Assembly: GCA_021803215.1 (NCBI GenBank) | Contig: JAJZLV010000131.1 | Location: 1-46,976 of the forward strand | Direction of reading: 5' to 3' | From: Actinomycetes bacterium | Lineage (GTDB): Bacteria > Actinomycetota > Acidimicrobiia > Acidimicrobiales > Bog-793 | Length of the DNA stretch: 46,976 nt | Shown: piece by piece, positions 4,379 through 40,814 of the stretch | Layout: the number at the start of each line of letters is the position of its first letter | Position numbering within the stretch: position 1 is the stretch's first letter | Position numbers and translations under genes: made by a program | The notes under the pieces: generated by a model | Seen by the model: the letters and a program-made list of their open reading frames with translations, nothing else | Database searches by the model: none | Told to the model about the DNA's origin: nothing

Positions 4379-4750
4379 GACAGATTTCGGAACGGTCCGA
4401 GCGCACATGCCCCGTCGCCGGGCTCGCCTCGCAAGCCGGCGCCTGCCGATCAGCACCGATGCTGCATGGTGGCCGGTGAGAGAGCCTTGGGGGTGTTGCT
4501 CTTTCATCCGGGACAGCCAGTGCTCAGCTCCCCACCTGGAACGTGTGTGCTGTGTCGAGCACTTCTCCGGCACTTCTCTCGGAGCAGTCGCGAACCCTGG
4601 AGTCGCAGCTCTCGCCTTCTCGCCCGGGCCCATCACCTCGTAGACGCTCCCAGTGCCCGATGTGCACAGATCCGTCCTGTTCGACGTGGCGGAGGCGTTG
4701 TACTCATGACGGAACTGCGGCAGGCGCCCACCGCCGAAGGATCGGCCGGC
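4379..4750. other. Intergenic stretch without recognisable gene
   Basis: Both strands contain only short frames with no recognisable motif. It lies between the TnpB tail and the 3' end of the dienelactone hydrolase gene, and may be flanking debris of the lost insertion element. Confidence 0.5.
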
Positions 4751-7911: not shown

Positions 7912-9747
7912 TCACCGACTCTGCGGCGTTGTCGGGAGCTTGCTCGCCGGCTCGCCGCGCGCCGCCTGGCCGGCACCGGTGCAATCCTCCCCGCGGCGGC
8001 TTTTGTACCACGACCTCCAGACGAGGCGGTGGAGCGGGACGACCCTCGGCACGTCCCGCAGGCCGGGGATGAAGGGCACGGCCAGAAGAAGCAGCGTCGC
8101 CAGACCGGTCATGTAGACAGCGATCATGTCGACGTTCGGCGAGCTCGAGAAGCCTGGCACCTCGTACCAGAGGGTGTAGAGCCAGAGCCACGGCTGGCCC
8201 GGGTAGCTGCCGGTCTCGTTCATGACGCCCCACTGGTCTCCGGTGAGGTGCTGGGACTTGGCCAGATTCGAGAAGTAGTTACCGTCCTCCAGAAAGAGGA
8301 GGGGCTTTGTGTAGTTGGTCCCGTAGAAGGGCTGCTGGGCGAGCAGGTCTGCGTCGAGCGCCCCTGAGCGGGCCATCGAGAGCTCGGCCCGCATGAGGCT
8401 CGGTACCGGGCCGTCGGCCGCGGCGGGGACGCGGGGCACGCCGCTCGAGAAGGTGACCTTCTTCTCGGCCTTCAGGTAGGCGCCGGCCCAGGCCTTCTGC
8501 CTCGCGGGTGGGGCGGCCTCGTAACTGTCGAGCGCGGCCCGCAGCCGCGGGTCGTCGCGGGCGTCGATGCCAAGCGGTGAGAGGACGAACGTCTTGGCGG
8601 CATCGATGGGCGTGCGGACACCAGCCAGCAGCTGCCAGGAGATCCCGAGGCGCTGCACGTGGCGAGAGCCGTGGTTGTACGGCGGCCCGTAGGTGGCGGT
8701 CTCGCTCGTTCCCGCCAGCTCGCTCGCCGCCGTTCCGAGGAAGTCGGCCGGTGCCACCTTGGCCCACGACTGGACCGTCACGGGCGGCTCGTCGGGCGAG
8801 GAGAGGATGCCGGACAGCAAGAGGACCAGCAGCAGCACGACGGTGCCGGCGATCGTCGCCTCTTTCAAGATGTCGTAACGGCGGACCGGCCCCTTCCAGT
8901 CCTGGGCGTCCCCGATCGCCGCCTGGCGGCGGGCCGCCCGGCCGGCCGGGCGGTGCTCGGGAAGCGGGTGCGAGACCCCCCGGACACGGACGAGGAGGAT
9001 GTGGGCTCCCACGAGGGCGAGCAGGAGCACGGGAAGCAGCACGATGTGCCACATGAGCATCTGGCCGAAGTTCATGAGGTTGAAAAAGGCCCCGAGCCCG
9101 AGCGAGTTGATGGCGTCCTTGCCGTTGGTCGAGATCCACTGGGAGTCGAAGTTCTGCTGGGAGAGGTAGCCGGTGAAGCACTCGACGACCGAGGCGCCGA
9201 AGGCGACGACCCCTGTGATCCACGTGAGAGCCCTCTTGCCCCTCCAGGCAGCCATCCAGAACTTGCCCCAGAGGTGGATGACCATAAAGGCCATGAACAA
9301 CTCGACGCTCCAGAGGTGGGTCGAGTTGAAGAAGTGCCCGACCGGGTTGTAGTGCCACCAGTCGGGACCGCCGAGGGCGAGCGCCGCCCCAGACAGGATC
9401 GCCATTGTGAGCGCCGCCAGCGTCGCAACGCCGAAGACGTAGATCCACGAGGCGACGTAGGCAGGCTGGCTGTCAGGAAGCAGCTTGCCGGGCGGCAGCA
9501 GCTTCAAACCGAGGTTGCGCACCCGGGCGGTCCACATCTTGGCGGCTTCTGGGTCGGCGTCGCTCGACGGGGCCCCCTCGCCGGCCTCGCCGTGGCCGCC
9601 CGGCGCCATCGTCTCGCTGTGACGGCCGGACGGGAACCTGACCAAAAGGGCCGCTCCGAAGATCACGACCATGACGCCGATGAGCGCCAGATTGGCCACA
9701 GAGACCTGGAAGATCGACCAGTGGAGATAGGTTCCCGGGCTGTTCAT
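7912..9747 (-). CDS. Cytochrome b (N-terminal bb-haem domain) membrane protein with unusual C-terminal part
   Basis: The 611-residue protein has an N-terminal TM helix (about 12-38), a polar linker, then a four-helix cytochrome b/b6 domain (about 98-255). Two His pairs suit two haems: His144/His158 (14 apart) and His234/His249 (15 apart), the spacing of cytochrome b6. A TM helix near 295-315 is followed by a large non-membrane insert and a final TM pair near 540-565. No PEWY-type Qo motif is visible in the C-terminal half. No Rieske protein or c-type cytochrome is adjacent. It may transfer electrons between the quinone pool and an unknown partner. Two DosR-like boxes lie 64-99 bp upstream. 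The family assignment is secure; the role is not. Confidence 0.85.
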   Translation of the reverse strand: MNSPGTYLHWSIFQVSVANLALIGVMVVIFGAALLVRFPSGRHSETMAPGGHGEAGEGAPSSDADPEAAKMWTARVRNLGLKLLPPGKLLPDSQPAYVASWIYVFGVATLAALTMAILSGAALALGGPDWWHYNPVGHFFNSTHLWSVELFMAFMVIHLWGKFWMAAWRGKRALTWITGVVAFGASVVECFTGYLSQQNFDSQWISTNGKDAINSLGLGAFFNLMNFGQMLMWHIVLLPVLLLALVGAHILLVRVRGVSHPLPEHRPAGRAARRQAAIGDAQDWKGPVRRYDILKEATIAGTVVLLLVLLLSGILSSPDEPPVTVQSWAKVAPADFLGTAASELAGTSETATYGPPYNHGSRHVQRLGISWQLLAGVRTPIDAAKTFVLSPLGIDARDDPRLRAALDSYEAAPPARQKAWAGAYLKAEKKVTFSSGVPRVPAAADGPVPSLMRAELSMARSGALDADLLAQQPFYGTNYTKPLLFLEDGNYFSNLAKSQHLTGDQWGVMNETGSYPGQPWLWLYTLWYEVPGFSSSPNVDMIAVYMTGLATLLLLAVPFIPGLRDVPRVVPLHRLVWRSWYKSRRGEDCTGAGQAARGEPASKLPTTPQSR

Positions 9748-9810: not shown

Positions 9811-9824
9811 GGGACTTTCGTCCT
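9811..9824. promoter_or_regulatory. DosR/DevR-like box 1 upstream of cytochrome b gene
   Basis: GGGACTTTCGTCCT differs at one position from the palindromic mycobacterial dormancy motif GGGAC-N4-GTCCC. It lies 64 bp upstream of the cytochrome b start. Function is inferred from the motif and position only. Confidence 0.5.
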
Positions 9825-9832
9825 ATCGCCTA

Positions 9833-9846
9833 GGGCCGAAGGTCCG
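9833..9846. promoter_or_regulatory. DosR/DevR-like box 2 upstream of cytochrome b gene
   Basis: GGGCCGAAGGTCCG fits a degenerate GGGNC-N4-GNCC pattern. Its start is 22 bp from that of box 1, two helical turns, so two regulator dimers would bind the same face of the DNA. On its own the match is weak. Confidence 0.4.
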
Positions 9847-9850
9847 GGCG

Positions 9851-10963
9851 TCACCCCGACCGCGGGAGGACGACCCCGCGCAGCGTCTCGTAGGCCCGCT
9901 CGAGCTGGGCCCGCTCGACCCGCTCGCCGGCGGTGTGGGCGAGCGAGGGATCGCCGGGCCCGAAGTTGGCGGCCGGCAGGCCGCGGGCCGAGAAGAAGCT
10001 CACGTCGGTCCAGCCGAGCTTCGCCTTCGGCGCCTGGCCGCTTGCCTCTACGAGGGCCGACAGGAGCGGGTGCGAGAGCCGGGGAGGGGCCGGGGCCGAC
10101 TGGCTCTCGAGGCTCACCCCGAGCCAATCGGGGTCGCCGGCCGCCTCTGACACGAGGCTTCGCAGGGCCGAGAAGGCCTCCGCGGCCGTCCGGTCGGGGG
10201 CGAAGCGGTAGTTGAGCACGAGGCGGGCAGAGTCGGGCACGACGTTGCCGGCGACCCCCCCGGAGACGGCGACGGCCTGCAGGGCCTCTTTGTACCGGCA
10301 GCCCTCGAGGACCGGCTGGCGAGCCTCGTAGGACTCGAGGGCCGCCAGCACGGGCGCCAGGCGGTGGATGGCGTTCGCTCCCATCCACGGCCGCGCCGTG
10401 TGGGCCCGCTCGCCTTTGGTTTCGACAACCGCCCGCAGGACCCCCTGGCAGCCGGCTTCGACGAGAGAGCCGGTCGGCTCCCCGAGGACGGCCGCGTCGG
10501 CCTCGAGCCAGGCCGGCGCCGCCAGCTCCACCTCGCGCAAACCTGAATGCCGCTGGTCGACCTCCTCGCAGACGTAGAAGACGAAGCTCAGGTCGCAAAC
10601 AAGGTCGCCGATGGCGGCCGGGTCGCTCGCCAGGCGGGCCAGCTCGAGGAAGACCGCCACTCCCCCCTTCATGTCGACCGATCCGATGCCGGCCAGCCAG
10701 TCGCCTTTGATGACAGGCTCCTCGTTCCCGTTCGCCGGCACCGTGTCGAGATGACCGGCCAGCATCAGCCGGGAGCGCTTCTCGAGGTTCGTGCGGGCAC
10801 AGACGTTGTTGCCGAGGCGGGCGAGCTCGAGGTTGGCGGCCTCGCTTCGCAGCCTTCCCTCCACGAAGTCGGCGATCGCCTTCTCGCCGTGGCTGACCGA
10901 GGCGATGCCGACCAGCTCCGCCGTCTTCTGGAGCAGGTCGGCCGGCGGCGAGCCGCGACTCAC
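9851..10963 (-). CDS. dapE: Succinyl-diaminopimelate desuccinylase
   Basis: DapE removes succinate from N-succinyl-LL-2,6-diaminopimelate, giving LL-DAP for lysine and cell wall. The 370-residue M20 peptidase shows the metal ligand motif GHLDTVP, then GSVDMKGG, the catalytic pair CEEVD, a ligand Glu in LGEPT, a central dimerisation domain with GERAHTARPWMGANAIH, and a final metal His in LAHTAGE. The GTG start at 10963 overlaps the dapD stop (GTGA) and gives the normal family length. It is the last gene of the hpf-miaA-dapF-hflX-dapC-dapD-dapE operon, directly after the two preceding enzymes of the succinylase pathway. Confidence 0.94.
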   Translation of the reverse strand: MSRGSPPADLLQKTAELVGIASVSHGEKAIADFVEGRLRSEAANLELARLGNNVCARTNLEKRSRLMLAGHLDTVPANGNEEPVIKGDWLAGIGSVDMKGGVAVFLELARLASDPAAIGDLVCDLSFVFYVCEEVDQRHSGLREVELAAPAWLEADAAVLGEPTGSLVEAGCQGVLRAVVETKGERAHTARPWMGANAIHRLAPVLAALESYEARQPVLEGCRYKEALQAVAVSGGVAGNVVPDSARLVLNYRFAPDRTAAEAFSALRSLVSEAAGDPDWLGVSLESQSAPAPPRLSHPLLSALVEASGQAPKAKLGWTDVSFFSARGLPAANFGPGDPSLAHTAGERVERAQLERAYETLRGVVLPRSG

Positions 10964-11775
10964 GCCGAGACGCCGTGGGTCCGGAGGATCTCGTTCAGCT
11001 GGGACTTGTCGTGGCGCTCGCCCTCCTCGAGCCGGCGCAGGACGAGCACGCAGGGCAGGAAGAACTCCCCCCCGGCAAGCTCTCGCCGCCGAGAGGCCCC
11101 GACGGCGACCGACCAGGGCGGCACGACCCCGCGGGAGAGCTCCTCTCCGGTCTCGGCGTCGACGACCGGGATGGAGGGGTTGAGGATCGTTCCCTCGCCG
11201 AGCACCGCTCCCTGGCCGACTCGGGCACCCTGGGTCACCATGCAGCGGCTGCCGACGAGCACGTCGTCGCCGATCATCACCGGTACGGCGTTCGGCGGCT
11301 CGAGCACTCCTCCGATGCCGACCCCGCCCGAGAGATGGACCCTCTCTCCGATCTGGGCACAGGAACCGACCATCGTGCCCGCCCCGACCCGGGCTCCGAT
11401 GTTGACGTAGCTCGGCATGAGGATCGCCCCGGGGCCTATGTACGAGCCCCAGCGGGCCGAGGCACCCGGCACGACGCGAACCCCCGCCTGCTCGTATCCC
11501 GTCTTGAGCGGCAGCTTGTCGGCGTACTCGAAAGGACCCGAGCGCGAGGTCTCGATCGAGGTGAGGAAGAAAAGGAGGAGAATCGCCTCTTTCAGCCACT
11601 CATGGACGACGACCTCGCCCGAGACGGTCGTCTCGGCCACCCGCGCCTCTCCGGTGTCAAGCAGGTCGATCGCCTCCCTCACGACGGCGTAGGCCTCCTC
11701 GTCGCCGGCGGCGAGCTCGCCCGCCGCCCGCCGCGCCGCCAGCTGGCGCACCTTCTCCCCGAGCTCTCCCATCAC
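10960..11775 (-). CDS. dapD: Tetrahydrodipicolinate N-succinyltransferase, variant lacking one hexapeptide
   Basis: DapD transfers succinyl from succinyl-CoA to tetrahydrodipicolinate. The 271-residue product matches the E. coli-type enzyme (LPSYVNIG-like MPSYVNIG, SCAQIGERVHLSGGVGIGGVLEPP, left-handed beta-helix core, C-terminal SQLNEILRT) rather than the longer actinomycete DapD. The usual segment GTMV-DTWATV-GSCAQIG reads GTMVGSCAQIG here, so one six-residue coil (between residues 136 and 137) is absent, including the Asp that is position 141 in E. coli-type numbering. GTG 11775 overlaps the dapC stop (GTGA); ATG 11772 is an equally usable start. Role is supported by dapC and dapE on either side. 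Confidence 0.9.
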   Translation of the reverse strand: MMGELGEKVRQLAARRAAGELAAGDEEAYAVVREAIDLLDTGEARVAETTVSGEVVVHEWLKEAILLLFFLTSIETSRSGPFEYADKLPLKTGYEQAGVRVVPGASARWGSYIGPGAILMPSYVNIGARVGAGTMVGSCAQIGERVHLSGGVGIGGVLEPPNAVPVMIGDDVLVGSRCMVTQGARVGQGAVLGEGTILNPSIPVVDAETGEELSRGVVPPWSVAVGASRRRELAGGEFFLPCVLVLRRLEEGERHDKSQLNEILRTHGVSA

Positions 11776-12923
11776 AAGGTCCCGGCGAGGCGGTCGGCGA
11801 CGAGAGCGAGGCGCTCTGTCGGCTGCACAACGGCCAGGCGGACATAGTCGGCTCCCTCCGGTCCGTAGGCCTCGCCCGGGCTCACGATGGCGCCGGCCCG
11901 CTCGGCGAGGTACCGGCCGAGCTCGAAGCCAGAGCCGGAGCCATGACCGGCGAAGCGGTCGGGCGCCTTCACCCAGAGGTAGAAGGCGCCGGCCGGGACC
12001 TGCGCCGGGATGGAGGCCAGCGTGAGCGCCTCGGCGAGAGCAACGAGCCGCTCCCGGTAGGCCTTCCTTTGGGCCACCACGGACTCGTCGTCGTCGAAGG
12101 CGACGGCAGCGGCGTGCTGCACGGGACCGGGGACTATGAAGCCGGCATGCCGGCGCACCGCTGCCAGGTAGGAGACGAGGTCGCCGTCACCGGCGTAGAA
12201 GCCGGCTCGCAGGCCTGCCAGGTTGGAGCGCTTCGAGAGGGAGTGGAGGGCGAGGACGCCCTCGTTGCCCGACTCGAGGATGGTGTGCGGCGGCGAGCTC
12301 CAGCTGAACTCGGCGTAGCACTCGTCGGAGAGGACCAGCACGCCGTGCGCCCTGCCCCAGGCGGCCGCCTCCGACAGCTCCTCTATCTGGCCCGCCGGGT
12401 TGCCGGGCGAGTTGACCCAGAGGCAGAGAGCCCGGGAGGCGTCCCGCTCCGAGATGGCCCCGTAGTCGAGCCGTCCGTCCGGCCCGGCGGGCACGCGGAC
12501 CGCTCGGCAGCCGGCCAGCACCGCGCCCATCTCGTAGGTCGGGTAGCTGAGCGAGGGGTACAAGACTGTGTCCCGAGCGGGGCTCCGCAGCCGCAGCCAG
12601 TGGGGCAGGCCGGCGACGAGCTCCTTGCTGCCGACACAGGCGGCCAACTCGTCGACCGGGGAGAGCTGCACGCCAAAGCGCCGCTCGAGCCAGCGGGCGG
12701 CTGCCTGGCGCAGCTCGGCCGAGCCGGCCGAAGGCGGATAGCCCCGCTCGGCCCCCGAGCTCGAGAGAGCGGCGACGACGGCCGGAGCCGGCGGGTCGCA
12801 GGGGGTGCCGATCGAGAGGTCGACCGCTCCGCCCGGCAGCTTCTCGGCGAGCTCGCTGAACTCGGCCAGCTTGTCGAAGGGGTAGTCGGGCGGGACGAAG
12901 CCGTCTCCCTCGGGGGCTCTCAT
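11772..12923 (-). CDS. dapC: N-succinyldiaminopimelate aminotransferase
   Basis: This PLP-dependent class I/II aminotransferase makes N-succinyl-LL-DAP from the keto product of DapD, with glutamate as donor. Key fold type I features are WVNSPGNPAG (cofactor Asn), SDECYAEF (Asp/Tyr contacting PLP) and the Schiff-base Lys in LHSLSKRSNLAGLRAGF, typical of the actinobacterial DapC group. A C-terminal substrate Arg is likely in ADYVRLAVV. Length is 383 residues. The start ATG overlaps the hflX stop (ATGA) and the stop overlaps the dapD start, so dapC-dapD-dapE form one coupled block. Confidence 0.93.
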   Translation of the reverse strand: MRAPEGDGFVPPDYPFDKLAEFSELAEKLPGGAVDLSIGTPCDPPAPAVVAALSSSGAERGYPPSAGSAELRQAAARWLERRFGVQLSPVDELAACVGSKELVAGLPHWLRLRSPARDTVLYPSLSYPTYEMGAVLAGCRAVRVPAGPDGRLDYGAISERDASRALCLWVNSPGNPAGQIEELSEAAAWGRAHGVLVLSDECYAEFSWSSPPHTILESGNEGVLALHSLSKRSNLAGLRAGFYAGDGDLVSYLAAVRRHAGFIVPGPVQHAAAVAFDDDESVVAQRKAYRERLVALAEALTLASIPAQVPAGAFYLWVKAPDRFAGHGSGSGFELGRYLAERAGAIVSPGEAYGPEGADYVRLAVVQPTERLALVADRLAGTL

Positions 12924-14182
12924 CGGGTGACGTACTCGGAGAATCGGCGGGTGCCCCGCTCGTCCAGGCGCGCCTTTAGCAACACGGTCTCTCCTTCGTA
13001 TCGTTCGTCGACCACCTCGCCCTCCCGGTGGACGGCAGCCACCACGTCCCCCCGGCCGACCGGGACGGAGAGGGCCACCACCCGGTCGTTCGACCGCAGG
13101 CGGTCTGCCACCTTTCGCAAGAGCTCGGCGACGCCCTGCCCGGTGCGGGCCGAGAAGACGGGAGCCCCGTCCTCGCTCGCCGACAGCTTGGCCGCCTCCT
13201 CGGGCGAGAGGTCGGCCTTGTTCACGGCCAGCAGCTCGGGCACCTCGCCCGCCCCGATCTCGGCCAGCACGGACCTCACGGCGGCGATCTGGCCCTCGGG
13301 GTCCCGGGCGGAGCCGTCGACCACGTGCACCAGCAGGTCGGCGGCGGTGACGACGTCCAAGGTGGCGTGGAAGGCGTCCACCAGCTGGTGGGGAAGCTTG
13401 CGCACGAACCCGACGGTGTCTGACATGAGCACCGTCTCTCCCCCCGGCAGCTCGAGGCGGCGGGTACGGGGATCCAGGGTGGAAAAGAGCCGGTTCTCGA
13501 CGAGGACGCCGGCGTCTGTCAGCCGGTTCAAGAGCGTCGACTTGCCGGCGTTGGTGTAGCCGACGAGCGACACGGTGCGAAGCGCCCCGCGGCGCCTCGA
13601 GCGGTGCTGGGTCTGACGGGTCGATTCGAGCCCGTGCAGCTCGGTCTCGAGCTTGCGGATCCGACCCATGAGTCGCCGCCTGTCCTCCTCGAGCTTCGTC
13701 TCGCCCGGTCCTCGCGTCCCGATCCGGCCGGCCTGCTGGGAGAGCTCGGAGCCCCGGCCACGCAGCCGGGGGAGCCGGTACTGCAACAGGGCCAGCTCGA
13801 CCTGGGCCCGGCCCTCCTCGGTGTGCGCGTTCTGGGCGAAGATGTCGAGGATGACGGCGGTGCGGTCGATCGCCGTCCGGCCCAGCAGCCGCTCGAGGTT
13901 GCGCTGCTGGGCCGGGGTGAGCTCCTCGTCGAAGACCACCGTGTCGGCGTCGACCTCCTCGGAGAGGTGGCGGAGCTCCTCGGCCTTGCCCCGTCCGATG
14001 TAGGTGGCCGGATCGGGCGCCTCCCGGCGCTGGACGATGCGGGCCACCTCGTCGGCCCCGGCCGTGTCGACGAGCAGGGCGAGCTCGTCGAGGCTCGCCT
14101 CCACCTCGTCCAAGGTGCGCGGCCAGGCGACCACCCCGACGAGGACGATCTTCTCCCGGAACCTCCGGTCGATGAGGGTCAT
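12920..14182 (-). CDS. hflX: HflX ribosome-associated GTPase
   Basis: HflX binds and splits stalled or hibernating 70S ribosomes. The 420-residue protein has the HflX N-terminal domain (YIGRGKAEEL, VVFDEELTPAQQRNLE), the glycine-rich linker GRIGTRGPGETKLEEDRR, a long helical hairpin, and a GTPase domain with P-loop GYTNAGKST, G3 DTVGF and G4 NKAD. ATG 14182 gives the family N-terminus; upstream in-frame sequence is low-complexity and overlaps dapF. It lies 7 bp after dapF in the operon. Its position next to hpf and miaA agrees with the common miaA-hfq/hflX and miaA-dapF-hflX arrangements in other bacteria. Confidence 0.95.
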   Translation of the reverse strand: MTLIDRRFREKIVLVGVVAWPRTLDEVEASLDELALLVDTAGADEVARIVQRREAPDPATYIGRGKAEELRHLSEEVDADTVVFDEELTPAQQRNLERLLGRTAIDRTAVILDIFAQNAHTEEGRAQVELALLQYRLPRLRGRGSELSQQAGRIGTRGPGETKLEEDRRRLMGRIRKLETELHGLESTRQTQHRSRRRGALRTVSLVGYTNAGKSTLLNRLTDAGVLVENRLFSTLDPRTRRLELPGGETVLMSDTVGFVRKLPHQLVDAFHATLDVVTAADLLVHVVDGSARDPEGQIAAVRSVLAEIGAGEVPELLAVNKADLSPEEAAKLSASEDGAPVFSARTGQGVAELLRKVADRLRSNDRVVALSVPVGRGDVVAAVHREGEVVDERYEGETVLLKARLDERGTRRFSEYVTR

Positions 14183-29019: not shown

Positions 29020-29904
29020 CTAGTTCCGCCTCCAAAAGGAGATGACGTCGGCCAAGGTCTCCTCGAGCGGCACGGCCGGGCTCCAGCCGGTGGCGGCCAC
29101 GAGCTTGGAGGCGTCCCCGAGGAAGATAGGAACGTCGACTGGACGGTAGAGGCTCTCGTCCCGCACGAGCTCGACCGGCCCGCCGGCGATGGCGATGAGG
29201 CGTTCGGCCACCTCGCCCACCTTGAGGCCCCTCCCGCTGGCGACGTTGTAGACCTCGCCCGGCTCGCCGCCCACCGCCAGGAGCCGGTAGGCCCGGACCA
29301 CGTCGCGGACGTCTGTGAAGTCCCGCACGGCTTCGAGGTTTCCTACCGCTACCTTGTTCACCCCCGCCCGCTCCGCCTCGACCAGGCGACGGGCCAGGGC
29401 CGAGACGACGAAGTCGGGCGCCTGGCCGGGGCCGACGTGGTTGAAGGGGCGGACCACCACGACGGGGAGCCCCCTTCCCAAGAAGGCCTGCAGGCCGAGG
29501 AACTCGGCCGCCACCTTGCTCGAGGCGTAGGGGCTGACCGGGCGAAGGGGAGCCGACTCGGTGAGAGGCTCGCCGCCCGCCGCCCCGTAGACCTCGGCCG
29601 AAGAGACGATCACGACCCTCGGCGGCTCGAGGCAGGCGGCGGCCGCCTCGAGGACGTTCAGGGTGCCGAGGGCGTTCACCTTGAAGGTGAGGGCCGGGTC
29701 CTCCCAGGACCGCCCGACGTGGGCCAGGCCGGCCAGGTGGTAGACGACCTCCGGGCTCACCTTCGTCATCGAGGCCCGCACCGCCGCCGGCTCGGTGACG
29801 TCCACCTCGGCGTCGACGGCCACCACCTCGTCACCCGAGTCGAGGAGGTGGTCGGCCAGCCAGTGGCCGACGAAGCCGGCACCTCCTGTGATGTAGGCGA
29901 GCAT
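29020..29904 (-). CDS. NAD-dependent epimerase/dehydratase, GDP-4-keto-6-deoxymannose reductase-like
   Basis: An extended SDR of 294 residues with the cofactor loop TGGAGFVG, the Ser/Tyr/Lys triad (SSAEVYG and SPYASSKVAAE), and the substrate region VVRPFNHVGPGQAPDFVVSAL, which resembles GDP-6-deoxy-4-keto-D-mannose reductases (Rmd) that make GDP-D-rhamnose. Downstream of ManC, such an enzyme could act on a GDP-mannose product, but no GDP-mannose 4,6-dehydratase lies in the window, so the exact substrate is an inference. It is the final gene of the 12-gene polysaccharide/F420 operon and converges on the small helical-protein gene. Confidence 0.85.
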   Translation of the reverse strand: MLAYITGGAGFVGHWLADHLLDSGDEVVAVDAEVDVTEPAAVRASMTKVSPEVVYHLAGLAHVGRSWEDPALTFKVNALGTLNVLEAAAACLEPPRVVIVSSAEVYGAAGGEPLTESAPLRPVSPYASSKVAAEFLGLQAFLGRGLPVVVVRPFNHVGPGQAPDFVVSALARRLVEAERAGVNKVAVGNLEAVRDFTDVRDVVRAYRLLAVGGEPGEVYNVASGRGLKVGEVAERLIAIAGGPVELVRDESLYRPVDVPIFLGDASKLVAATGWSPAVPLEETLADVISFWRRN

Positions 29905-29913
29905 TTTTCCACC

Positions 29914-31122
29914 CTACCGACGTCGTGAGGGCCGTCGCAGGCTCGAGCGGGTCGCCGCCGCCTCGCGGGCCGACCGGTAGGCCGCCACATGGCGCCTTGC
30001 CGTCTCCGCCCAGGTGAAGCGGGCCGCTCGCTCGAGACCGAGCGCCGCCCGCCGCCTCCTCTCCTCGCGACTCTGGTCCAGGCATCGCTCTAGGGCGGCG
30101 GCCAGGCCGGCCGGGTCGCCGGCAGGCGCCAGCAGGGCAGCGCCGGCCGCGAACTCCGCCATGGCAGTCCCCGCCGTCGTGACGAGAGGGGCCCCGGTCG
30201 CCATCGCCTCGAGAGCGGGGAGGCCGAAGCCCTCCTCGTGGCTCGGATAGGCGACCGCCCCGGCCATCCTCATGAGCGCCACCACCTCCTCGTCCGGTAC
30301 CCAGCCGAGACGGCGGATCTGCCCGGCCGCGCTCGAGGAGGAGATGGCCTCCTCGAGCTCGCCCGCTCCCCAGCCGGCCAGGCCGGCGAGGACGAGCCGC
30401 AGCTCCGGGCGGCCGGCCGCCAGCCGCTCGAAGGCCCGCACCAGGTCGACGACGCCCTTGCGCGGCTCGAGCGTGCCCACATGAACCACCAGGCGGCGCT
30501 CGAGCTCCTCTCTCCCGAGCCAGGAGAGCAGCTCGGCGGAGAGCCGCTCGGGCTCGGCCGGTCCCGGCGAGAAGCGGTCGTGGTCGACCCCGTGCTCGGC
30601 GACGACCACCTCGCCTCTCACCGCCACCAGCTCGCTTAGGCGGCGAGCCGTCGTCTCGCTGACGCAGACGATGACGTCGGCCTGCTCGGCGGCTCGCCGG
30701 ATGGCGGCCCGGAAGAACGACAGCTTCGAGCGCTCGTGCCACTCGGGATGGGCGAAGAAGGTGAGGTCGTGGACGGTGACGACCCGACCACCGCTGAGCC
30801 CGCCCGGCAAGGTGTAGTGGGGCCCGTGGTAGACGGCGCCGGCCGCCCGCCGCGAGAGGGCGGGCCCGAGCGCCAGGCGCTCGAAGGCGAGGCGGGCCGG
30901 CCGGGCCGCCGGCACGAGGGGCAGGAGCCGGGCCGAGGGGGCGATGGCCCTCCAGCGAGCGGTGTCCTTCTGGCGGGAGACCGCCGACAGGGAGAGCTCG
31001 GGGATCTCCGAGAGGGCGCGAGCGAGCTCGACGATGTAGCGGCCGGCTCCAGCCGGCCGCTCCGGCACGGCGCTCACGTCGAGGACCACCTCGAGGGGCT
31101 CCTCACCAGAGGGTCGAGTCAC
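29914..31122 (-). CDS. Family-4 glycosyltransferase (third of three in tandem)
   Basis: A 402-residue GT-B enzyme. The N-terminal domain has the acceptor-side glycine loop ERPAGAGRYIVEL and VTVHDLTFFAHPEWH; the C-terminal domain has the nucleotide-sugar region VVHVGTLEPRKGVVDLV and the E-x7-E motif in YPSHEEGFGLPALEAMATG, diagnostic of GT4. GTG 31122 overlaps the previous stop (GTGA). Related to mannosyl- and rhamnosyl-transferases of surface polysaccharide clusters; likely adds one sugar to a lipid-linked glycan on the inner face of the membrane. The Arg-rich C-terminal tail is unlike its two neighbours. Confidence 0.9.
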   Translation of the reverse strand: MTRPSGEEPLEVVLDVSAVPERPAGAGRYIVELARALSEIPELSLSAVSRQKDTARWRAIAPSARLLPLVPAARPARLAFERLALGPALSRRAAGAVYHGPHYTLPGGLSGGRVVTVHDLTFFAHPEWHERSKLSFFRAAIRRAAEQADVIVCVSETTARRLSELVAVRGEVVVAEHGVDHDRFSPGPAEPERLSAELLSWLGREELERRLVVHVGTLEPRKGVVDLVRAFERLAAGRPELRLVLAGLAGWGAGELEEAISSSSAAGQIRRLGWVPDEEVVALMRMAGAVAYPSHEEGFGLPALEAMATGAPLVTTAGTAMAEFAAGAALLAPAGDPAGLAAALERCLDQSREERRRRAALGLERAARFTWAETARRHVAAYRSAREAAATRSSLRRPSRRR

Positions 31123-32225
31123 GCCCGGGCCACCTCCGACCACACCTCTACATGCCTCTCCGCCGCCCGGGCCCAGGTGAGCTCGGCTGCCCGGGCCGCA
31201 CCCGAAGAGACCAGCTCCGCTCGTCGCCGATCGTCGCTGGCCGCTTCGAGCAGGCCCGCCGCGATCGAGGCGGTGTCGGTCGGGTCCACCTCGACGCAGG
31301 CCCCCGCCGCGCTCGGCAGCCCACGGCTCGCCACGACCGGAGTCCCCCTCGAGAGAGCCTCTCCGGCCGGCAGGCCGAAGCCCTCGAGGAGCGGGACGTA
31401 GGCGAGCAGCCGGGCCAGGCGGTACAGACCGCTCAGGGTCCCGGCCGCCGCCGGGCCGGCCGCCACCACCCCCGGGGCGGGCGCCACCCCGCCCTCTTTC
31501 CAGCCGACCGGCCCGACTACCACGAGGGGCCAGGGCTCGGGGAGCTGCCGGCGGATCGAGCCGTAGGCATCGACCAGCCGGGCGAGGTTCTTTCGCGGCT
31601 CGAGGGTAGAGACCGTGAGCAGGAACTGCGAGCCTGGCTCGATCCCCCGCTCGGCGAGGAAGCCTGTGGCGGCCTCGAGATCCGGGGCGGCCAGGTGGTC
31701 GAGCCCCTCCGGGATGACCGTCACCCGGCTCGGCTCGACCCCGAGGCCCGCCCCGAGCAGCTCCCCGGCGGTCAGCTCGGAGGGGACCACGAGCCTGGCC
31801 GCCTGCCGGGCGGCCCGGCGGAGGGCGGACTCGTGCCAGCTCCGGCCATGGGCCGGGTAGGCCTCGGGGAAGCGTCGCCAGGCGAGGTCGTGCACCATCA
31901 CGACCAGTCCGGCCGCCACCGGTGGGTGGCCGAAGGAGGTGGCGTGGGTCACGGGGGCCCGCCGGCGGGCGAAGCCGACCGGCAGGCCCCTCGCCCAGAG
32001 AGCCGTGAGGAGCCGGCCGGGCAGCCTCGAGGCCTCGACCGGAAAACCCTCCGCCAGGAGCGGGTCACCTCCCCGAGCAGGCCGGCTGGCCCGCAGCCGG
32101 ACGGCCGGGGACTGCTCGGAGAGAGCTCGCAGGCCCTGCAGGAGGCCGCGGCAGTAGGTGCCGATGCCGCCGGGGAGCGGGCGGCGCAGCTGCTCGACCA
32201 CGATGTCGACCTCGAGCTCGACCAC
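31119..32225 (-). CDS. Family-4 glycosyltransferase (second of three in tandem)
   Basis: A 368-residue GT-B enzyme with the glycine loop RRPLPGGIGTYCRGLL, MVHDLAWRRFPEAYP, the donor-binding LLTVSTLEPRKNLARLV and the C-terminal motif VPLLEGFGLPAGEALSRG. In the last motif the first Glu of E-x7-E is retained and the second is in GEAL. GTG 32225 is the earliest start after the upstream stop; GTG 32201 is also possible, and GGGAGG lies immediately before the first. It shares architecture with the flanking glycosyltransferases, suggesting duplication and divergence for successive sugars. Confidence 0.88.
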   Translation of the reverse strand: MVELEVDIVVEQLRRPLPGGIGTYCRGLLQGLRALSEQSPAVRLRASRPARGGDPLLAEGFPVEASRLPGRLLTALWARGLPVGFARRRAPVTHATSFGHPPVAAGLVVMVHDLAWRRFPEAYPAHGRSWHESALRRAARQAARLVVPSELTAGELLGAGLGVEPSRVTVIPEGLDHLAAPDLEAATGFLAERGIEPGSQFLLTVSTLEPRKNLARLVDAYGSIRRQLPEPWPLVVVGPVGWKEGGVAPAPGVVAAGPAAAGTLSGLYRLARLLAYVPLLEGFGLPAGEALSRGTPVVASRGLPSAAGACVEVDPTDTASIAAGLLEAASDDRRRAELVSSGAARAAELTWARAAERHVEVWSEVARA

Positions 32226-32234
32226 CTCCCGGTG

Positions 32235-33350
32235 TCAGCTCGCCTTCTCAGAGAGGGCCGCCTGGTAGAGAGCGACCATCTGCTCGGCGGTGCGCTCCCA
32301 GGCGAACGAGGCGACCTGGCGCTCTCCGGCCCCTTTCAGCCGCCGGCGGAGCGCCTCGTCGACGAGAGCCTCTTCGAGCGCCCGCGCCAGGTCGTCGGTG
32401 GCGCCCGGCTCGACCAGGATGGCGGCCTCTCCGACGACCTCTGGCACACCGCCGGCCCGGGTGGCGACGACCGGGACCCCTGCCACCATCGCCTCGAGGG
32501 GCGGGAAGCCGAAACCCTCGTACAGCGAGGGGTAGGCGAGGACGGAGGCGCCCCACAGAAGGCCGCTTCTCTCTTCCTCGTTCACGTAGCCGAGGCGAAG
32601 CACCCGGTCTTCGAGGCGGTGCCTTGTGATCGCATCGGTCAGGGCGCCGGTCCCCCAGCCGTCTGAGCCGGCGAGCACGAGCCTCAGCTCCCGGTAGCGC
32701 TCGCTCAGCCGGCTGAAGGCCTCGACGAGGCTCGGGTAGTCCTTTCGTGGCTCGACCGTCCCGAGAGAGAGGATGTAGGGCGCTTTGATGCTCGTCTGGG
32801 CGGTCGGCTCGTCGATCCTCGGCACGCCCCAGTGGATGGTCCTCACCCTGTCTTCTGGCACCGAGAGGAGCTCGACCACCTCGTGGCGGACGAAGTCGGA
32901 GGGCACGTGGACGTGGGCTCCCCGCCCGACGGCCGCCCGCACGAGCGCCGGGTAGCCGCGGCTCGCCGGGGTGCACAACTCCGGGTAGCGCACCGCCGTG
33001 AGGTCGTGCACCGTCACGACGGCCGCGGCGCGCGAGGTCGGGGGGACCGAGAAATTCGTGCCGTGGACCACATCAGCCCGCCCGGTGAGCAACTCGGCGG
33101 GCAGGAAGGCGCCAAAGCGCCAGCCGAGATGGGCCAGCCGGCTCGGGATGGGGATGCCCCGGAAGGGGACCGAGCGCGAGAGCTCCCGATGGGCTACGAA
33201 GGGCTTTCGGGCGACGGCGTAGGCCCGCACCTCTACGCCGGGATGGTCGACGAGCGCCTCGAGGAGCCCCCGGCAGGAGGTCCCGACTCCGGAAGGCTCT
33301 CCTACGAGAGGCAGGACGTCGAGGGCGACCGACAGCGAGCGATGGCTCAC
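32235..33350 (-). CDS. Family-4 glycosyltransferase (first of three in tandem)
   Basis: A 371-residue GT4 enzyme with the acceptor loop GEPSGVGTSCRGLLEAL, VVTVHDLTAVRYPELC, donor-binding LSLGTVEPRKDYPSLVEAF, and YPSLYEGFGFPPLEAMVAG with the E-x7-E motif. GTG 33350 overlaps the cofE stop (GTGA), so sugar transfer and F420 genes are translationally coupled. The best functional guess is a mannosyl- or rhamnosyltransferase of a surface polysaccharide, given RmlB/RmlD and ManC in the same operon. Confidence 0.9.
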   Translation of the reverse strand: MSHRSLSVALDVLPLVGEPSGVGTSCRGLLEALVDHPGVEVRAYAVARKPFVAHRELSRSVPFRGIPIPSRLAHLGWRFGAFLPAELLTGRADVVHGTNFSVPPTSRAAAVVTVHDLTAVRYPELCTPASRGYPALVRAAVGRGAHVHVPSDFVRHEVVELLSVPEDRVRTIHWGVPRIDEPTAQTSIKAPYILSLGTVEPRKDYPSLVEAFSRLSERYRELRLVLAGSDGWGTGALTDAITRHRLEDRVLRLGYVNEEERSGLLWGASVLAYPSLYEGFGFPPLEAMVAGVPVVATRAGGVPEVVGEAAILVEPGATDDLARALEEALVDEALRRRLKGAGERQVASFAWERTAEQMVALYQAALSEKAS

Positions 33351-34051
33351 CTGAAGAGGTCCTCCGAGCACGGGCGGACGACCTCGCCGGCGACGGAGCC
33401 GTCGCCGAGGGCCGCCGGGTCGACCCCCCGCACCACGGCGACCGGGACGCCTGAAGCCTTCCCCATGACGAGCTCGGCGGCGCCGGCGATCTCGTCCACG
33501 AGGCACATCTCGGTCGCCACCAGCTGGCGCCCGAGGGCGTCCAGGCTGCCGCGCAGGTCGACAATCCCTCGGATCCCGGCGCAGCCGATCGCGACGTCGA
33601 CCACGCCGCGACGCCAGGCACGCCCGAAGGTGTCCGAGACGATCACGGCCACCCGGCGGCCGGTGCGGGCCCTGAGGCCGTCGCGGATCCGCCGGGCGGA
33701 GCGGTCCGGGTCCTCCGGCAACAGGGCGGCCCTGCCCTCGGCGACGTTGGAGAGGTCGATGCCGGAATTGGCGCAGACGTAGCCGTGCCGCGTCTCGGTG
33801 ATGACGAGGTCGCCCCGCCGCCTGAGGACTCGGACCGCCTCGGACTCGGCGAGGCGGCGCTTGGCAGCCGGGTCGCCCGGGTCGATCTCCACCATGCGGC
33901 CCTCGGCCTTCGAGACGACCTTCTGGGTGACGACGACGACGTCGTCGTCGAAGAGCTCGACCGCCTCGGCGATCATCGCTGCCAGGTCCGCCGCCCGCTC
34001 TATCTCGGGCAGGCCGGGAACCGGCAGGATGGTCAGGCTTCCCGGCGGCAC
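33347..34051 (-). CDS. cofE: Coenzyme F420-0:L-glutamate ligase, single-domain form
   Basis: CofE adds glutamates to F420-0 with GTP. The 234-residue protein has VVVVTQKVVSKAEGR, ITETRHGYVCANSGIDLSN, the metal/nucleotide region VIVSDTFGRAWRRGVVDVAIG and VATEMCLVDEIAGAAELVMGK. It matches the archaeal CofE or the N-terminal half of mycobacterial FbiB; the C-terminal FMN-binding reductase domain of FbiB is missing, so reduction of dehydro-F420-0 must be done by another protein. GTG 34051 is the only suitable start before the cofD stop. It lies between cofD and glycosyltransferase genes. Confidence 0.94.
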   Translation of the reverse strand: MPPGSLTILPVPGLPEIERAADLAAMIAEAVELFDDDVVVVTQKVVSKAEGRMVEIDPGDPAAKRRLAESEAVRVLRRRGDLVITETRHGYVCANSGIDLSNVAEGRAALLPEDPDRSARRIRDGLRARTGRRVAVIVSDTFGRAWRRGVVDVAIGCAGIRGIVDLRGSLDALGRQLVATEMCLVDEIAGAAELVMGKASGVPVAVVRGVDPAALGDGSVAGEVVRPCSEDLFR

Positions 34052-34084
34052 GGAGGCGAGTCTTGCCGGTCGGGGCGGCGGCCG

Positions 34085-35023
34085 CTAACCGGGAGAGCCG
34101 GCGGCCAGCACCACCTGGGCGAGGTGCCGGGCTCTCCCGGGGTCCGACATGACAGTCGGGGCGACGACGGCTCGCATGCCAGCCGCCTCGACCGCTTTCT
34201 TCCAGGCGGCGTCCACCTCGTCTATGACGAGGCTGCCGGCGACCTCCGTGAGCCGCTCGGCCACCCCCGCCGGGCTGGCCTGGCCGCCGAGCTCGACGAG
34301 GAGGCGGTCGGCCGGCCCCTTCAACGCCGTGCCGCCCACGATCGGAGAGACTGCCACCACGCTGGAGCGGCGGGCGGCGAGCAGCTCCCGCACGCCCGGC
34401 AGAGACAGGATCGGCCCGATCGAGACGACCGGGTTGGAGGGCGCCACCACCACCTGGTCTGCCCGTTCGAGCGCCTCGAGGACCTGGGCGGTCGGCCGCG
34501 CTCTTCTCGCACCGACGAAGAAGACCGCTTCCACTGCCACCTCGTGGCGGTGACGGACGAAGTACTCCTGGAAGGCGAGCTCGCCGCCCCCGACCCGGCG
34601 GAGCACCGTGCGCACCGGGTCGTCAGTCATCGGCAGGAGCTGCAGCCCGAGGCCGAAGGCCCGGGCGATCTCGGCCGTCACCTGGCTGAGAGAGGCGCCC
34701 TCCGCCAGGCGCCCGGTCCTGTAGAGGTGGGTGCCGAGATCCCGGTCGCCGAGGCGGAACCAGGTCCGGTCCCGCCCGCCGAGACGCTCGAGCGACTCCA
34801 TCGCCTGCCAGCTCTCACCGGCCAGACCCCACCCGGTCTCGGGGTTGACAGAACCCGAGAGCGTGTAGGTGATGGTGTCGAGATCCGGGCAGATGTAAAG
34901 GCCGTGCATGACGGTGTCGTCGCCGGTGTTGACCACGGCGGCGATCTCGGCTTCCTCCCTCACCTGGACCAGCCCGCCCAGCATGCGGGCGGCACCGACG
35001 CCCCCGCACAGGACGGCGATCAC
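34085..35023 (-). CDS. cofD: 2-phospho-L-lactate (phosphoenolpyruvyl) transferase for coenzyme F420
   Basis: CofD/FbiA joins the phospho-organic acid moiety to Fo, giving (dehydro-)F420-0. The 312-residue protein begins with VIAVLCGGVGAARMLGGL (the nucleotide-binding loop), then VVNTGDDTVMHGLYICPDLDTI, ETGWGLAGESWQAME, LGDRDLGTHLYRT and the late VAPSNPVVSIGPIL. All are hallmark CofD motifs. GTG 35023 overlaps the stop of the upstream SDR gene (GTGA). Adjacency to cofE reproduces fbiA-fbiB of mycobacteria. The guanylyltransferase CofC/FbiD and Fo synthase are not in the window. Confidence 0.95.
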   Translation of the reverse strand: MIAVLCGGVGAARMLGGLVQVREEAEIAAVVNTGDDTVMHGLYICPDLDTITYTLSGSVNPETGWGLAGESWQAMESLERLGGRDRTWFRLGDRDLGTHLYRTGRLAEGASLSQVTAEIARAFGLGLQLLPMTDDPVRTVLRRVGGGELAFQEYFVRHRHEVAVEAVFFVGARRARPTAQVLEALERADQVVVAPSNPVVSIGPILSLPGVRELLAARRSSVVAVSPIVGGTALKGPADRLLVELGGQASPAGVAERLTEVAGSLVIDEVDAAWKKAVEAAGMRAVVAPTVMSDPGRARHLAQVVLAAGSPG

Positions 35024-35973
35024 CTCTGGGGAGCCGGCTCCGACATGGCCCGGACGACCTCGGCCACCCCCTTTTTGAGGCTCGTCCACGGCTTCCAGCC
35101 GAGGTGGATCGAGGCCCGGTCGAAGTCGAGGGCGCTGCGACGGACATCTCCGGCGCGCTCTGGCCCGTGCCTCGGCCGGAGGCTGCTGCCGGCGGCCGCC
35201 GCCACGGTCTCATAGAGGTGGTTGGTCGTCGTCTCCCGGCCGGTGCCGACGTTGAGCACGAGGCCGCCGCCCCGGCGGGCCGCCCGGGCGAAGGCGTCGA
35301 CCACGTCGTCCACGTAGACGTAGTCCCTCGTGTGCTCGCCGTCGCCGAAGATAGTGCAGCTCTCGGCCCTCAAGAGGCGATCGGCGAAGATCGCCACCAC
35401 GCCCGCCTCTCCGTGCGGGCTCTGGCGGGGACCGTAGACGTTCGCCAGGGCGAGGGCGGTGAACTCGAGGCCGTGGAGCTTGCGATAGGTCACCATGTAG
35501 TCGATCGGCGCCGCCTTGGAGACCCCGTAGGGAGAGAGCGGCCCGTGCGGCATGTGCTCGCCGATCGGCAGGTCCGAGCCGTCCGGCTCGCCGTAGAGGG
35601 TGCCGCCGCTCGCGGCGTAGACGACCTTTTTCACCTTGGCCTGTCGGGCCGCCTCCAAAAGCGCCAGCGAGCCGAGAACGTTCACCTCGGCGTCGAGGAT
35701 CGGCCGGTCGACCGAGACCTTCACGGAGGCCTGGGCGGCCAGGTGGAAGACGACCTCGAAGCCCCGCATGGCGACGACCTCGGCGAGGCGGCCGTCTCTC
35801 ACGTCGAGGTTGTGGAAGCGAAAGCGCCCGCCCGAGGCCCTTGCCTCGGCCAGGTTGGCGAGAGAGCCGGAGCTGAGGTCGTCGACGACGTCCACCTCGT
35901 GGCCCTCGGCCAGCAGGCGGTCGACGAGGTGCGAACCGATGAAGCCGGCCCCGCCGGTGACGAGGCAGCGCAT
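35020..35973 (-). CDS. NAD-dependent sugar epimerase, UDP-glucose 4-epimerase-like
   Basis: A 317-residue extended SDR with TGGAGFIGSHLVDRLL (NAD loop), VDDLSSG, HLAAQASVKVSV, the catalytic Ser/Tyr/Lys positions in AASGGTLYGE and SPYGVSKAAP, ALANVYGPRQSP, and VYVDDVVDAF. These match the actinobacterial and archaeal GalE-like group acting on UDP-glucose/galactose or UDP-glucuronate. ATG 35973 begins the canonical N-terminus. It sits 47 bp downstream of manC and overlaps cofD, inside the polysaccharide operon, so it likely supplies galactose or an epimer for the glycan. Confidence 0.9.
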   Translation of the reverse strand: MRCLVTGGAGFIGSHLVDRLLAEGHEVDVVDDLSSGSLANLAEARASGGRFRFHNLDVRDGRLAEVVAMRGFEVVFHLAAQASVKVSVDRPILDAEVNVLGSLALLEAARQAKVKKVVYAASGGTLYGEPDGSDLPIGEHMPHGPLSPYGVSKAAPIDYMVTYRKLHGLEFTALALANVYGPRQSPHGEAGVVAIFADRLLRAESCTIFGDGEHTRDYVYVDDVVDAFARAARRGGGLVLNVGTGRETTTNHLYETVAAAAGSSLRPRHGPERAGDVRRSALDFDRASIHLGWKPWTSLKKGVAEVVRAMSEPAPQR

Positions 35974-36020
35974 CGGTCCGAGCACCGCCCGGCCGCCCGG
36001 CTGGCGAGGCGCCCGGGAGC

Positions 36021-37100
36021 TCACCGCCCCCCGAGCCTCGCCGCCACGAGGGTCGTCGACGCCTCCACCCTCTCTCCGCCGGCCACGAGCGAGAACTCTG
36101 TCACCTTGCAGCCGGGGCCGATCTCGGCCCCGGGGCCGATGATCGAGCTCTCGACGACGGCCCCCTGGCCGATCCTCGCTCCGGTCATGAGGATCGAGCG
36201 GACCACCCTTGCCCCGGCCGACACCTCGGCTGACGGGCCGACGACCGACTCGCTCACCTCCGCCCCCGCCCTCACCCGGGCGCCCGGGCCGAGGTAGGTC
36301 GGCCCAGAGGCGCTCCCTTCGAGCTCGGCCGCCCGATCGGCGAAGAGGCCCGGGGCGATCTCTGGCACCGGCGGGAGGCAATCGGCCGCCCGGCGGCGCG
36401 CCAGGATGTCGAAGGAGGCCTGCAGGAACTTCTCGGGCGTCCCCGTGTCGAGCCAGTAGGCCTCGGAGGAGAGGGCGAAGAGCTGGCCCCGCTCGACGAG
36501 GGACGGAAAGGTCTCTCTCTCGATCGAGACTCGCCGCCCGGGCGGTACGAGATCGAGCGCCTCCCGCTCGAGCAGGTAGCAGCCGGCGCTGATCCGGTTG
36601 GTCGGCGCCGTGCCCGGTGGCGGCTTCTCGATGAAAGCGACCACGCGCCCGGAGTCGTCGGTCGGCACGACGCCGAAGGCCGACGGATCGGCCACCGGGG
36701 TGAGCTGAATGGTGGCGAGCCCGCCGTGGGCCTCATGGAACGAGACGAGGGCTGGGATGTCGAAATCCGAGAGGACGTCCCCGTTAAGGACGAGGAAGCG
36801 CTCGGTGACGCCGGTCGCCTCGGCCGCGAAGCGGACGGCCCCGGCGGTGTCGAGCAGCTCGGGCTCGACGGCGAAGCTGAGCCGGGCCCCGGCCAGCTCG
36901 CCTTCTGGATAGGCCCGCTGGAACTCGTCCGGCCTGTAGCCGAGCGAGAGCACCACCCGGTCGACCCCGTGGCGGGCGAGCCAGCCGACGACATGCTCGA
37001 TCATCGGGCGGTCGACCACCGGGAGCATCTGCTTGGGAAGGTCGTAGGTGAGGGGGCGGAGCCTCGTCCCCTCCCCGCCGACCAGGACTACGGCGTCCAT
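36021..37100 (-). CDS. manC: Mannose-1-phosphate guanylyltransferase (NDP-sugar pyrophosphorylase with beta-helix tail)
   Basis: Makes GDP-mannose from mannose-1-P and GTP. The nucleotidyltransferase domain (about 1-235) has the signature LVGGEGTRLRPLTYDLPKQM, LNGDVLSDFD (metal Asp), FIEKP and YWLDTGTPEKFL; a left-handed beta-helix of hexapeptide repeats follows (about 255-345). This is the Mpg1/ManB arrangement of mycobacteria, in the same neighbourhood with wbbL, rmlD and fbiA/fbiB. Gene context favours GDP-mannose, but the family also includes glucose-1-P enzymes. ATG 37100 shares one base with the upstream stop (TGATG). Confidence 0.9.
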   Translation of the reverse strand: MDAVVLVGGEGTRLRPLTYDLPKQMLPVVDRPMIEHVVGWLARHGVDRVVLSLGYRPDEFQRAYPEGELAGARLSFAVEPELLDTAGAVRFAAEATGVTERFLVLNGDVLSDFDIPALVSFHEAHGGLATIQLTPVADPSAFGVVPTDDSGRVVAFIEKPPPGTAPTNRISAGCYLLEREALDLVPPGRRVSIERETFPSLVERGQLFALSSEAYWLDTGTPEKFLQASFDILARRRAADCLPPVPEIAPGLFADRAAELEGSASGPTYLGPGARVRAGAEVSESVVGPSAEVSAGARVVRSILMTGARIGQGAVVESSIIGPGAEIGPGCKVTEFSLVAGGERVEASTTLVAARLGGR

Positions 37101-39763: not shown

Positions 39764-39782
39764 CAGGCCGCGAGAGGCAGCG

Positions 39783-40805: not shown

Positions 40806-40814
40806 GCAGAGAGG

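Follow-up and report, generated by a model that had tools for sequence, protein, structure and literature searches.

Judged by the alignments and a structural model, the gene studied here belongs to a family whose members are cytochromes b by fold and are not subunits of a bc complex by the criteria applied. The gene lies on a 46,976-nucleotide stretch of actinobacterial DNA, the whole of which is called the window below. Alignments and model together indicate two bis-His b haem sites, a cytochrome b fold running from TM A to TM F, an outer cap and loss of the Glu/Asp of the Qo motif. In the model, a large insert forms the cap where the Qo/Rieske docking surface would be. Cytochrome b is commonly regarded as inseparable from the Rieske protein at Qo. 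A widespread family in which the fold is kept and the Qo side is both capped and rewritten would show the diheme wire reused alone. We found no description of such a family among the open-access papers searched, judged by titles and the openings of abstracts. With modest confidence, we assign these proteins to the b6/subunit-IV lineage of cytochrome b and read them as Rieske-independent, menaquinone-linked b-haem wires across the membrane, with a rebuilt, capped outer site and a role in low oxygen or stress.

Table 1. Features of the gene and of the DNA before it, in window coordinates; residue numbers are those of the encoded protein.
Feature	Position	Strand	Basis and remarks
Coding sequence of the fused, Rieske-less cytochrome b family	7912..9747	-	Intact open reading frame, ATG start, 611 aa
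Predicted extra N-terminal TM helix, residues 10-35	9643..9720	-	Model; separate gene of ~55 aa in split members and in L186
Predicted four-helix diheme core TM A-D, residues 101-256, with His 144, 158, 234 and 249	8980..9447	-	Model, PF13631, conservation
Predicted TM E, residues 293-314, starting with Lys295-Glu296	8806..8871	-	hhalign, conservation
Predicted extracytoplasmic insert, residues 318-516, mostly helical, ~190 aa beyond canonical	8200..8796	-	Model, conservation
Predicted ef-type helix with P-G-Q-P-W-L-W-L-Y instead of a PEWY-type Qo motif, residues 514-529	8161..8208	-	Model, alignment
Predicted TM F, residues 539-559	8071..8133	-	Model
Candidate DevR/OsdR-type box 1	9833..9846	-	CGGACCTTCGGCCC, one mismatch to GGGMCNWWNGKCCC
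Candidate DevR/OsdR-type box 2	9811..9824	-	AGGACGAAAGTCCC, one mismatch to GGGMCNWWNGKCCC

Fold and functional residues

The window protein falls within the cytochrome b fold by its Pfam match to Cytochrom_B_N_2 (PF13631; E 1.7e-12, residues 150-262), by its haem ligands and by structural matches at Z 17-20.6. The ligands, in TM B and D, are spaced by 14 and 15 residues (His144/158 and His234/249), as an earlier note on this DNA had read them, and 98 of the 99 N-domain rows in the alignment have all four; the one exception, L084, has Tyr at one His position. The match to PF00033 stays below the Pfam cut-off, and the closest PDB sequence is cytochrome b6 (1q90_B, E 1.4e-7). The top NCBIfam match is ExtP (NF040969; E 5.5e-12, residues 136-259), a cytochrome of b type from operons for selenite/tellurite reduction; the score of 46 bits falls short of the curated cut-off of 290, which leaves the protein outside ExtP. 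A b6-like core is common to the two, but the window protein has an additional C-terminal half and neighbours of other kinds. That half has no Pfam match over the cut-off. Searched alone, the C-terminal halves of five members gave no Pfam match below E 0.07, and comparison of the C-terminal half with PDB sequences returned a single match, at E 0.98.

The AlphaFold model was built from an alignment of 121 rows, omitting L049 and L101 for their over-long N-termini, and has a pLDDT of 88.3 and a pTM of 0.86; it replaced an earlier model from 51 rows with a pLDDT of 65. Its helices are TM A (101-126), TM B (135-164), TM C (170-195), a cd helix (200-215), TM D (232-256), TM E, the ef-type helix proper (519-529), TM F and an end helix (578-597), and TM G and H of bc1 cytochrome b have no counterpart in it. 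When solved chains were searched by structure, the best 50 listed matches (Z 17.1-20.6) were all, apparently, cytochrome b by title. Actinobacterial QcrB, of the bcc-aa3 supercomplex, is the best structural match listed, with the mycobacterial chain 9gy6_N at Z 20.6 (279 residues, 3.2 Å) and 7q21_B at Z 20.4. Human cytochrome b (5xte_J; Z 19.3, 283 residues, 3.0 Å) superposes its residues 3-317 on model residues 78-575, and with 283 of the 315 residues of this stretch aligned, the superposition must take in most of the ef region and TM F. Foldseek concurs (7q21_B, E 1.9e-6; b6 4ogq_A, TM score 0.65 by target length).

With Z of 17-20.6, the agreement of the model with bc1 cytochrome b extends over TM A to F, and we therefore interpret the protein as a cytochrome b of bc type whose outer side has been rebuilt. 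The suggestion in the earlier note that it may be no bc-complex subunit at all stands in that the protein has no Rieske protein or cytochrome c of its own and is distinct from qcrCAB, but it does not extend to a place outside the cytochrome bc fold. Similarly, the motif loss and the insert described for the C-terminal half are borne out, but that half is not simply foreign: TM E, the ef-type helix and TM F are recognisable by structure. Profile comparison (hhalign) with ten subunit-IV-like sequences from the same phylum is suggestive only, with a probability of 36% for TM E (E 3.8e-4; reversed control 0.14) and, likewise suggestive only, of 57% once the insert is excised (E 1.1e-4; reversed 0.023). 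The insert-excised comparison sets YPGQPWLWLY opposite VPEWYFLSMF. TM F alone gave no signal (E 0.057; reversed 0.011), which counts against proof at the level of sequence.

None of the 103 rows that cover the Qo region carries P[ED]W or PHW, in agreement with the absence of a PEWY-like motif reported earlier; an invariant P-G-x-x-W-L-W is found there instead. The register is uncertain, with either PGQP or QPWL opposite PEWY, and neither puts Glu or Asp at position 2. Qo motifs are described as present, with variations, in all cytochrome bc complexes in the part of PMC9162462 used here. On the outer side, K210, D211, E511, P516, G517, W520, W522 and D540 do not vary among the rows that cover them; conservation is 97-99% at H132, D201, E343, D465, D488, N510, Q518 and Y524.

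Between the end of TM E at residue 314 and the start of TM F at 539 the model places 224 residues, consistent with the more than 200 residues estimated earlier from the translation. The insert carries many near-invariant acids and aromatics. Cys is nowhere conserved in it and His never fully (H500 reaches 88%), which makes an Fe-S centre or a haem c in it very unlikely, and we rejected a haem-c or metal domain there.

On the opposite, Qi side, the conserved Lys295-Glu296 aligns with the Lys-Asp that opens canonical TM E (hhalign). Yeast Asp229 binds quinone at Qi, according to the portion of PMC9162462 consulted, and we would place it at the position equivalent to the Lys-Glu pair of the family. 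An inner quinone site in the family is plausible on this alignment; the link to quinone is drawn from homology and the conserved Qi-side pair, and from nothing further.

Family, ancestry and neighbouring genes

The hosts of the family are acid-loving soil and mine bacteria. In an order-level search of 60 genomes, with a strong match taken as E below 1e-80, 35 genomes (G000-G034) were of the window's own taxonomic family, probably Acidimicrobiaceae, and 33 of these gave a strong match (G002 and G025 did not), as did 3 of the 25 from elsewhere in the order. Across the phylum, matches below E 1e-50 turned up in 10 of 296 genomes. In a scan of named genomes, at least 558 of 591 pattern matches were relatives. 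Of these, 80 were kept, almost entirely MAGs that carry the label Acidimicrobiaceae or Actinomycetes; the isolate Acidiferrimicrobium sp. IK, which belongs to Acidimicrobiaceae, is also among them. No reliance was placed on the titles that MAGs bear in GenBank. Some MAG records with a family gene are titled Candidatus Saccharibacteria (L076, L088, L105, L108, L120, L128, L129, L134 and L135); these labels are probably wrong, the gene being actinobacterial.

The window protein is 80% identical to that of the same-genus L012 and 62-74% identical to those of other members of the taxonomic family. A chance open reading frame is ruled out by the identity of 62-80% maintained across genera. The genome itself (2.64 Mb in 148 contigs, 95.5% complete) holds a canonical ctaE-qcrC-qcrA-qcrB cluster on contig C142, answering the earlier call to look for a separate qcrABC, and its QcrB has PDWY. 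A pseudogene or misassembled QcrB is ruled out because the genome's own QcrB sits there, elsewhere in the genome. QcrB, of the same phylum and with a canonical copy in the same genome, differs from the family in retaining PDWY (in that copy), TM G/H and its partners QcrA and QcrC. Subunit IV/Cytochrom_B_C (PF00032) has no match anywhere in the genome.

The description of the gene as an orphan did not survive, as the family has a split-gene form and the genome holds a paralogue. Members are encoded either by a single fused gene or by three genes in a row, for a 1-TM peptide, a b6-like subunit and a subunit-IV-like subunit. The paralogue, on contig C52, is of the three-gene form and is cut by the contig end, leaving a 54-aa one-TM peptide (4420-4584), a 222-aa b6-like protein and the C-terminal part. 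In genome G138 (L186) a 58-aa TM peptide is separate (8460-8636) and the remainder is fused. An ABC transporter that by eye resembles the ferric-iron type (binding protein, permease and ATPase; C52 1-3603) lies directly before the split paralogue, and L071 has the same order. A conserved small family of ~165 aa occurs near cytochrome b genes at 9 of 122 loci (for example L006 3618-4124, L041 3984-4475 and L042 4639-5160); the single member scanned has no Pfam match.

The family shares b6-type His spacing and the TM A-F fold with cytochrome b6 and subunit IV (PetB/PetD) of the Rieske/cytochrome b complexes, and its split members are coded like PetB/PetD, as a b6-like and a subunit-IV-like gene. 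Unlike PetB/PetD, it has the outer insert of ~190 residues, a C part of TM E and F only, an extra 1-TM peptide and a clade of its own. In an N-domain tree of 48 rows (20 of the family, 18 b6-type and 10 QcrB), the phylogeny that the earlier note had called for, the family is split off by a branch supported at 100/99, on a stem 2.35 changes per column long, far from QcrB. The tree program flagged long-branch attraction with the b6 row B6_L261, which bears on the exact sister. Fully fused rows, the window gene included, nest within split rows, which suggests that separate genes for the 1-TM peptide and the b6-like and subunit-IV-like parts are probably ancestral and that fusion came later.

We surveyed 904 neighbour genes at 122 distinct loci, and no cytochrome c or Rieske neighbour recurs among them. 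Two CXXCH proteins resemble, by reading, a zinc alcohol dehydrogenase and a thioredoxin-like protein, and two proteins with a loose Rieske pattern are each a single case. The window has no Rieske or haem-c gene beside the gene, just as noted before. Unlike the Rieske/cytochrome b complexes, then, the family is without Rieske, cytochrome c/f and PEWY, and it falls outside them both by the Qo motif (0 of 103 rows) and by co-encoded Rieske and cytochrome c/f (none beside the gene in the window, and none that recurs among the neighbours surveyed). A redox partner in a conserved operon was rejected, as none recurs; response regulators are the commonest neighbours at the 122 loci. Elsewhere in the genome there are four Rieske-domain genes. 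Contig C119 has a 257-aa open frame of membrane Rieske type with a ferredoxin-like Rieske C-terminus, a possible unlinked electron partner.

A DevR-like regulator (at least 50% identity) lies within 7 kb at 12 of 122 loci and immediately adjacent at 10. At least one gene of the DevR, GAF kinase, USP, PNPOx or GNAT type is nearby at 26 loci and none at the other 96, and the window gene has no DevR, USP, GAF kinase, PNPOx or GNAT-type gene nearby. At the Acidiferrimicrobium sp. IK locus (L123) the family gene sits among USP, GAF kinase, PNPOx and GNAT genes; Pfam confirmed the DevR on L041 and the GAF kinase on L044. The window's genome has a single DevR-like regulator, on contig C18, that is 69% identical to that of L041. 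The cluster around it (L239 4221-15666) holds a USP (PF00582), a PAS-type sensor kinase, an Acg-like nitroreductase, the DevR and a 909-aa GNAT-ACS protein, names given partly by eye. UbiA-type (CtaB-like) genes occur within seven genes at 7 of 122 loci (L188, L189, L190, L135, L139, L145 and L150), and CtaA-type genes are close to cytochrome b genes at 4, some with a UbiA-type gene.

Upstream boxes and possible electron routes

The published OsdR consensus (from the part of PMC5069765 used), combined with the Mtb one, gave the box pattern GGGMCNWWNGKCCC. By its two candidate boxes, each one mismatch away and 22 bp apart, the window gene is a candidate member of a DevR/OsdR-type regulon, and the sister genome L045 has a pair at identical spacing. 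Boxes were counted with at most one mismatch in 250 bp upstream at deduplicated loci above 60% GC; 6 of the 122 loci lack 250 bp upstream. Such boxes stand before 38 of 80 GC-rich members compared with 83 of 854 other genes, at a p value (1e-15) that overstates independence because relatives share ancestry. The reversed pattern occurs before 3 of 80 members and 23 of 854 other genes. Fused and split genes both carry boxes (25 of 56 and 13 of 24, respectively), and the sites concentrate at -75 to -125. At loci with a GC of 0.6 or less a box was found in 0 of 36, and regulation through it is thus not family-wide.

Within the window's genome the exact box has 10 sites, barely above the 6 of the control; two of the 10 lie directly before the 54-aa gene of the split copy (start C52:4420), and one lies ~150 bp before a USP gene. 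The published 16-mer with up to four mismatches is found upstream of 9 of 73 members and in 13 of 669 random windows, a weaker control, and the Mtb 20-mer has no close match in 39 upstream regions (best, 6 mismatches). The family box is close to AGGGCCGATCGGCCCT and to the SCO5979 site CGGGACCTTCGGCCCT, both as given in the part of PMC5069765 consulted. USP, nitroreductase-like, GAF kinase and DevR genes also recall the DevR/OsdR dormancy regulon of Mycobacterium and Streptomyces. In the OsdR paper the respiratory target is nitrate reductase, and the word 'cytochrome' is absent from the main text (PMC5069765). The DevR/OsdR-type boxes at the window gene and at 38 of 80 GC-rich members are new here, as is the DevR-like regulator that adjoins the family gene at 10 of 122 loci. 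The boxes suggest that a response regulator of this type probably raises expression of the family, and they would connect it with low-oxygen physiology in bacteria about whose anaerobic respiration little is understood.

We infer the following quinone chemistry, electron direction, outer acceptor and induction. Menaquinol or menaquinone would react at the inner, Qi-like site, and electrons would pass from bH to bL, or the reverse. The outer pocket beneath the cap, which invariant polar and aromatic residues would line, would exchange electrons with a soluble substrate, or with a soluble partner whose gene does not lie beside this one. A DevR/OsdR-type regulator would raise expression, and the protein would serve redox balance or alternative respiration at low oxygen; we consider this role the most likely because DevR/OsdR-type regulation is probable. 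Of the earlier idea of a protein passing electrons between quinone and a partner, the quinone half gains from homology and the Qi-side Lys-Glu pair; no redox partner was found.

A real Q-cycle complex, with quinol oxidised at a modified Qo and the first electron passed to a Rieske protein encoded elsewhere (a shared QcrA or the C119 protein), seems to us unlikely. It would accommodate the ef helix and TM F kept in the model and the four Rieske-domain genes of the genome, the 257-aa C119 frame among them, but all 103 covering rows lack the Qo Glu/Asp, the cap is on the side where docking would occur and no Rieske neighbour recurs at 122 loci. Electrons might instead flow inward, as has been proposed for the di-haem b561 superoxide oxidase, the outer pocket oxidising a small reductant (in the chemistry of superoxide or nitric oxide, for example) and menaquinone being reduced at the inner site. 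We give this a low probability; stress-type regulation and neighbours, together with the invariant polar residues at the outer face, are consistent with it.

The regulators and assembly-type genes near some members could also point to a haem-based redox or gas sensor or an oxidase-assembly factor, rather than an electron-transfer enzyme, as DevR genes adjoin at 10 of 122 loci and UbiA-type and CtaA-type genes are near at 7 and 4. Counter to this, the predicted core is a two-haem transmembrane wire, no output domain is present and CtaA/CtaB neighbours are a minority of loci, and we regard such a function as very unlikely. Finally, a low-oxygen QcrB isoform might swap into the canonical bcc-aa3 supercomplex, which is encoded in the same genome and has the fold in common with the family. 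The loss of the Qo motif, the missing TM G/H, the ~190 extra residues of the ef loop and a tree that places the family far from QcrB make this hardly credible.

For the preferred reading, a menaquinone-linked wire with a capped outer site, ferric iron would be an attractive candidate acceptor, given acidophilic hosts and respiration with Fe(III). Anaerobic reduction of Fe(III) is listed for Acidimicrobium ferrooxidans and Acidiferrimicrobium australe (PMC8790237), and Acidiferrimicrobium sp. IK carries a member of the family. That the protein is specifically a DevR-controlled menaquinol:Fe(III) reductase (or one acting on another extracytoplasmic oxidant), with b haems only, in acidophilic Acidimicrobiaceae is a speculative proposal to which we assign little probability. 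If true, it would amount to cytochrome-c-free anaerobic respiration, the outer site passing electrons to dissolved ferric iron at low oxygen.

Surroundings of the gene in the window

About 10 nt 5' of the ATG of the window gene, GAGGAAGG makes, by eye, a good ribosome-binding sequence. The gene comes after a dapE-dapD-aminotransferase run and before a MarR-type regulator, and the dap side is kept in the sister genome. The minus-strand genes at 9851-14182 match DapE/M20 peptidase, tetrahydrodipicolinate N-succinyltransferase, class I aminotransferase and HflX, in the same order as in the sister L045. Farther along the window, a long minus-strand run (29020-41711) contains tandem paralogues, three of ~370-410 aa at 29914-33350, with related genes of 294-340 aa at 29020, 35020 and 39783.
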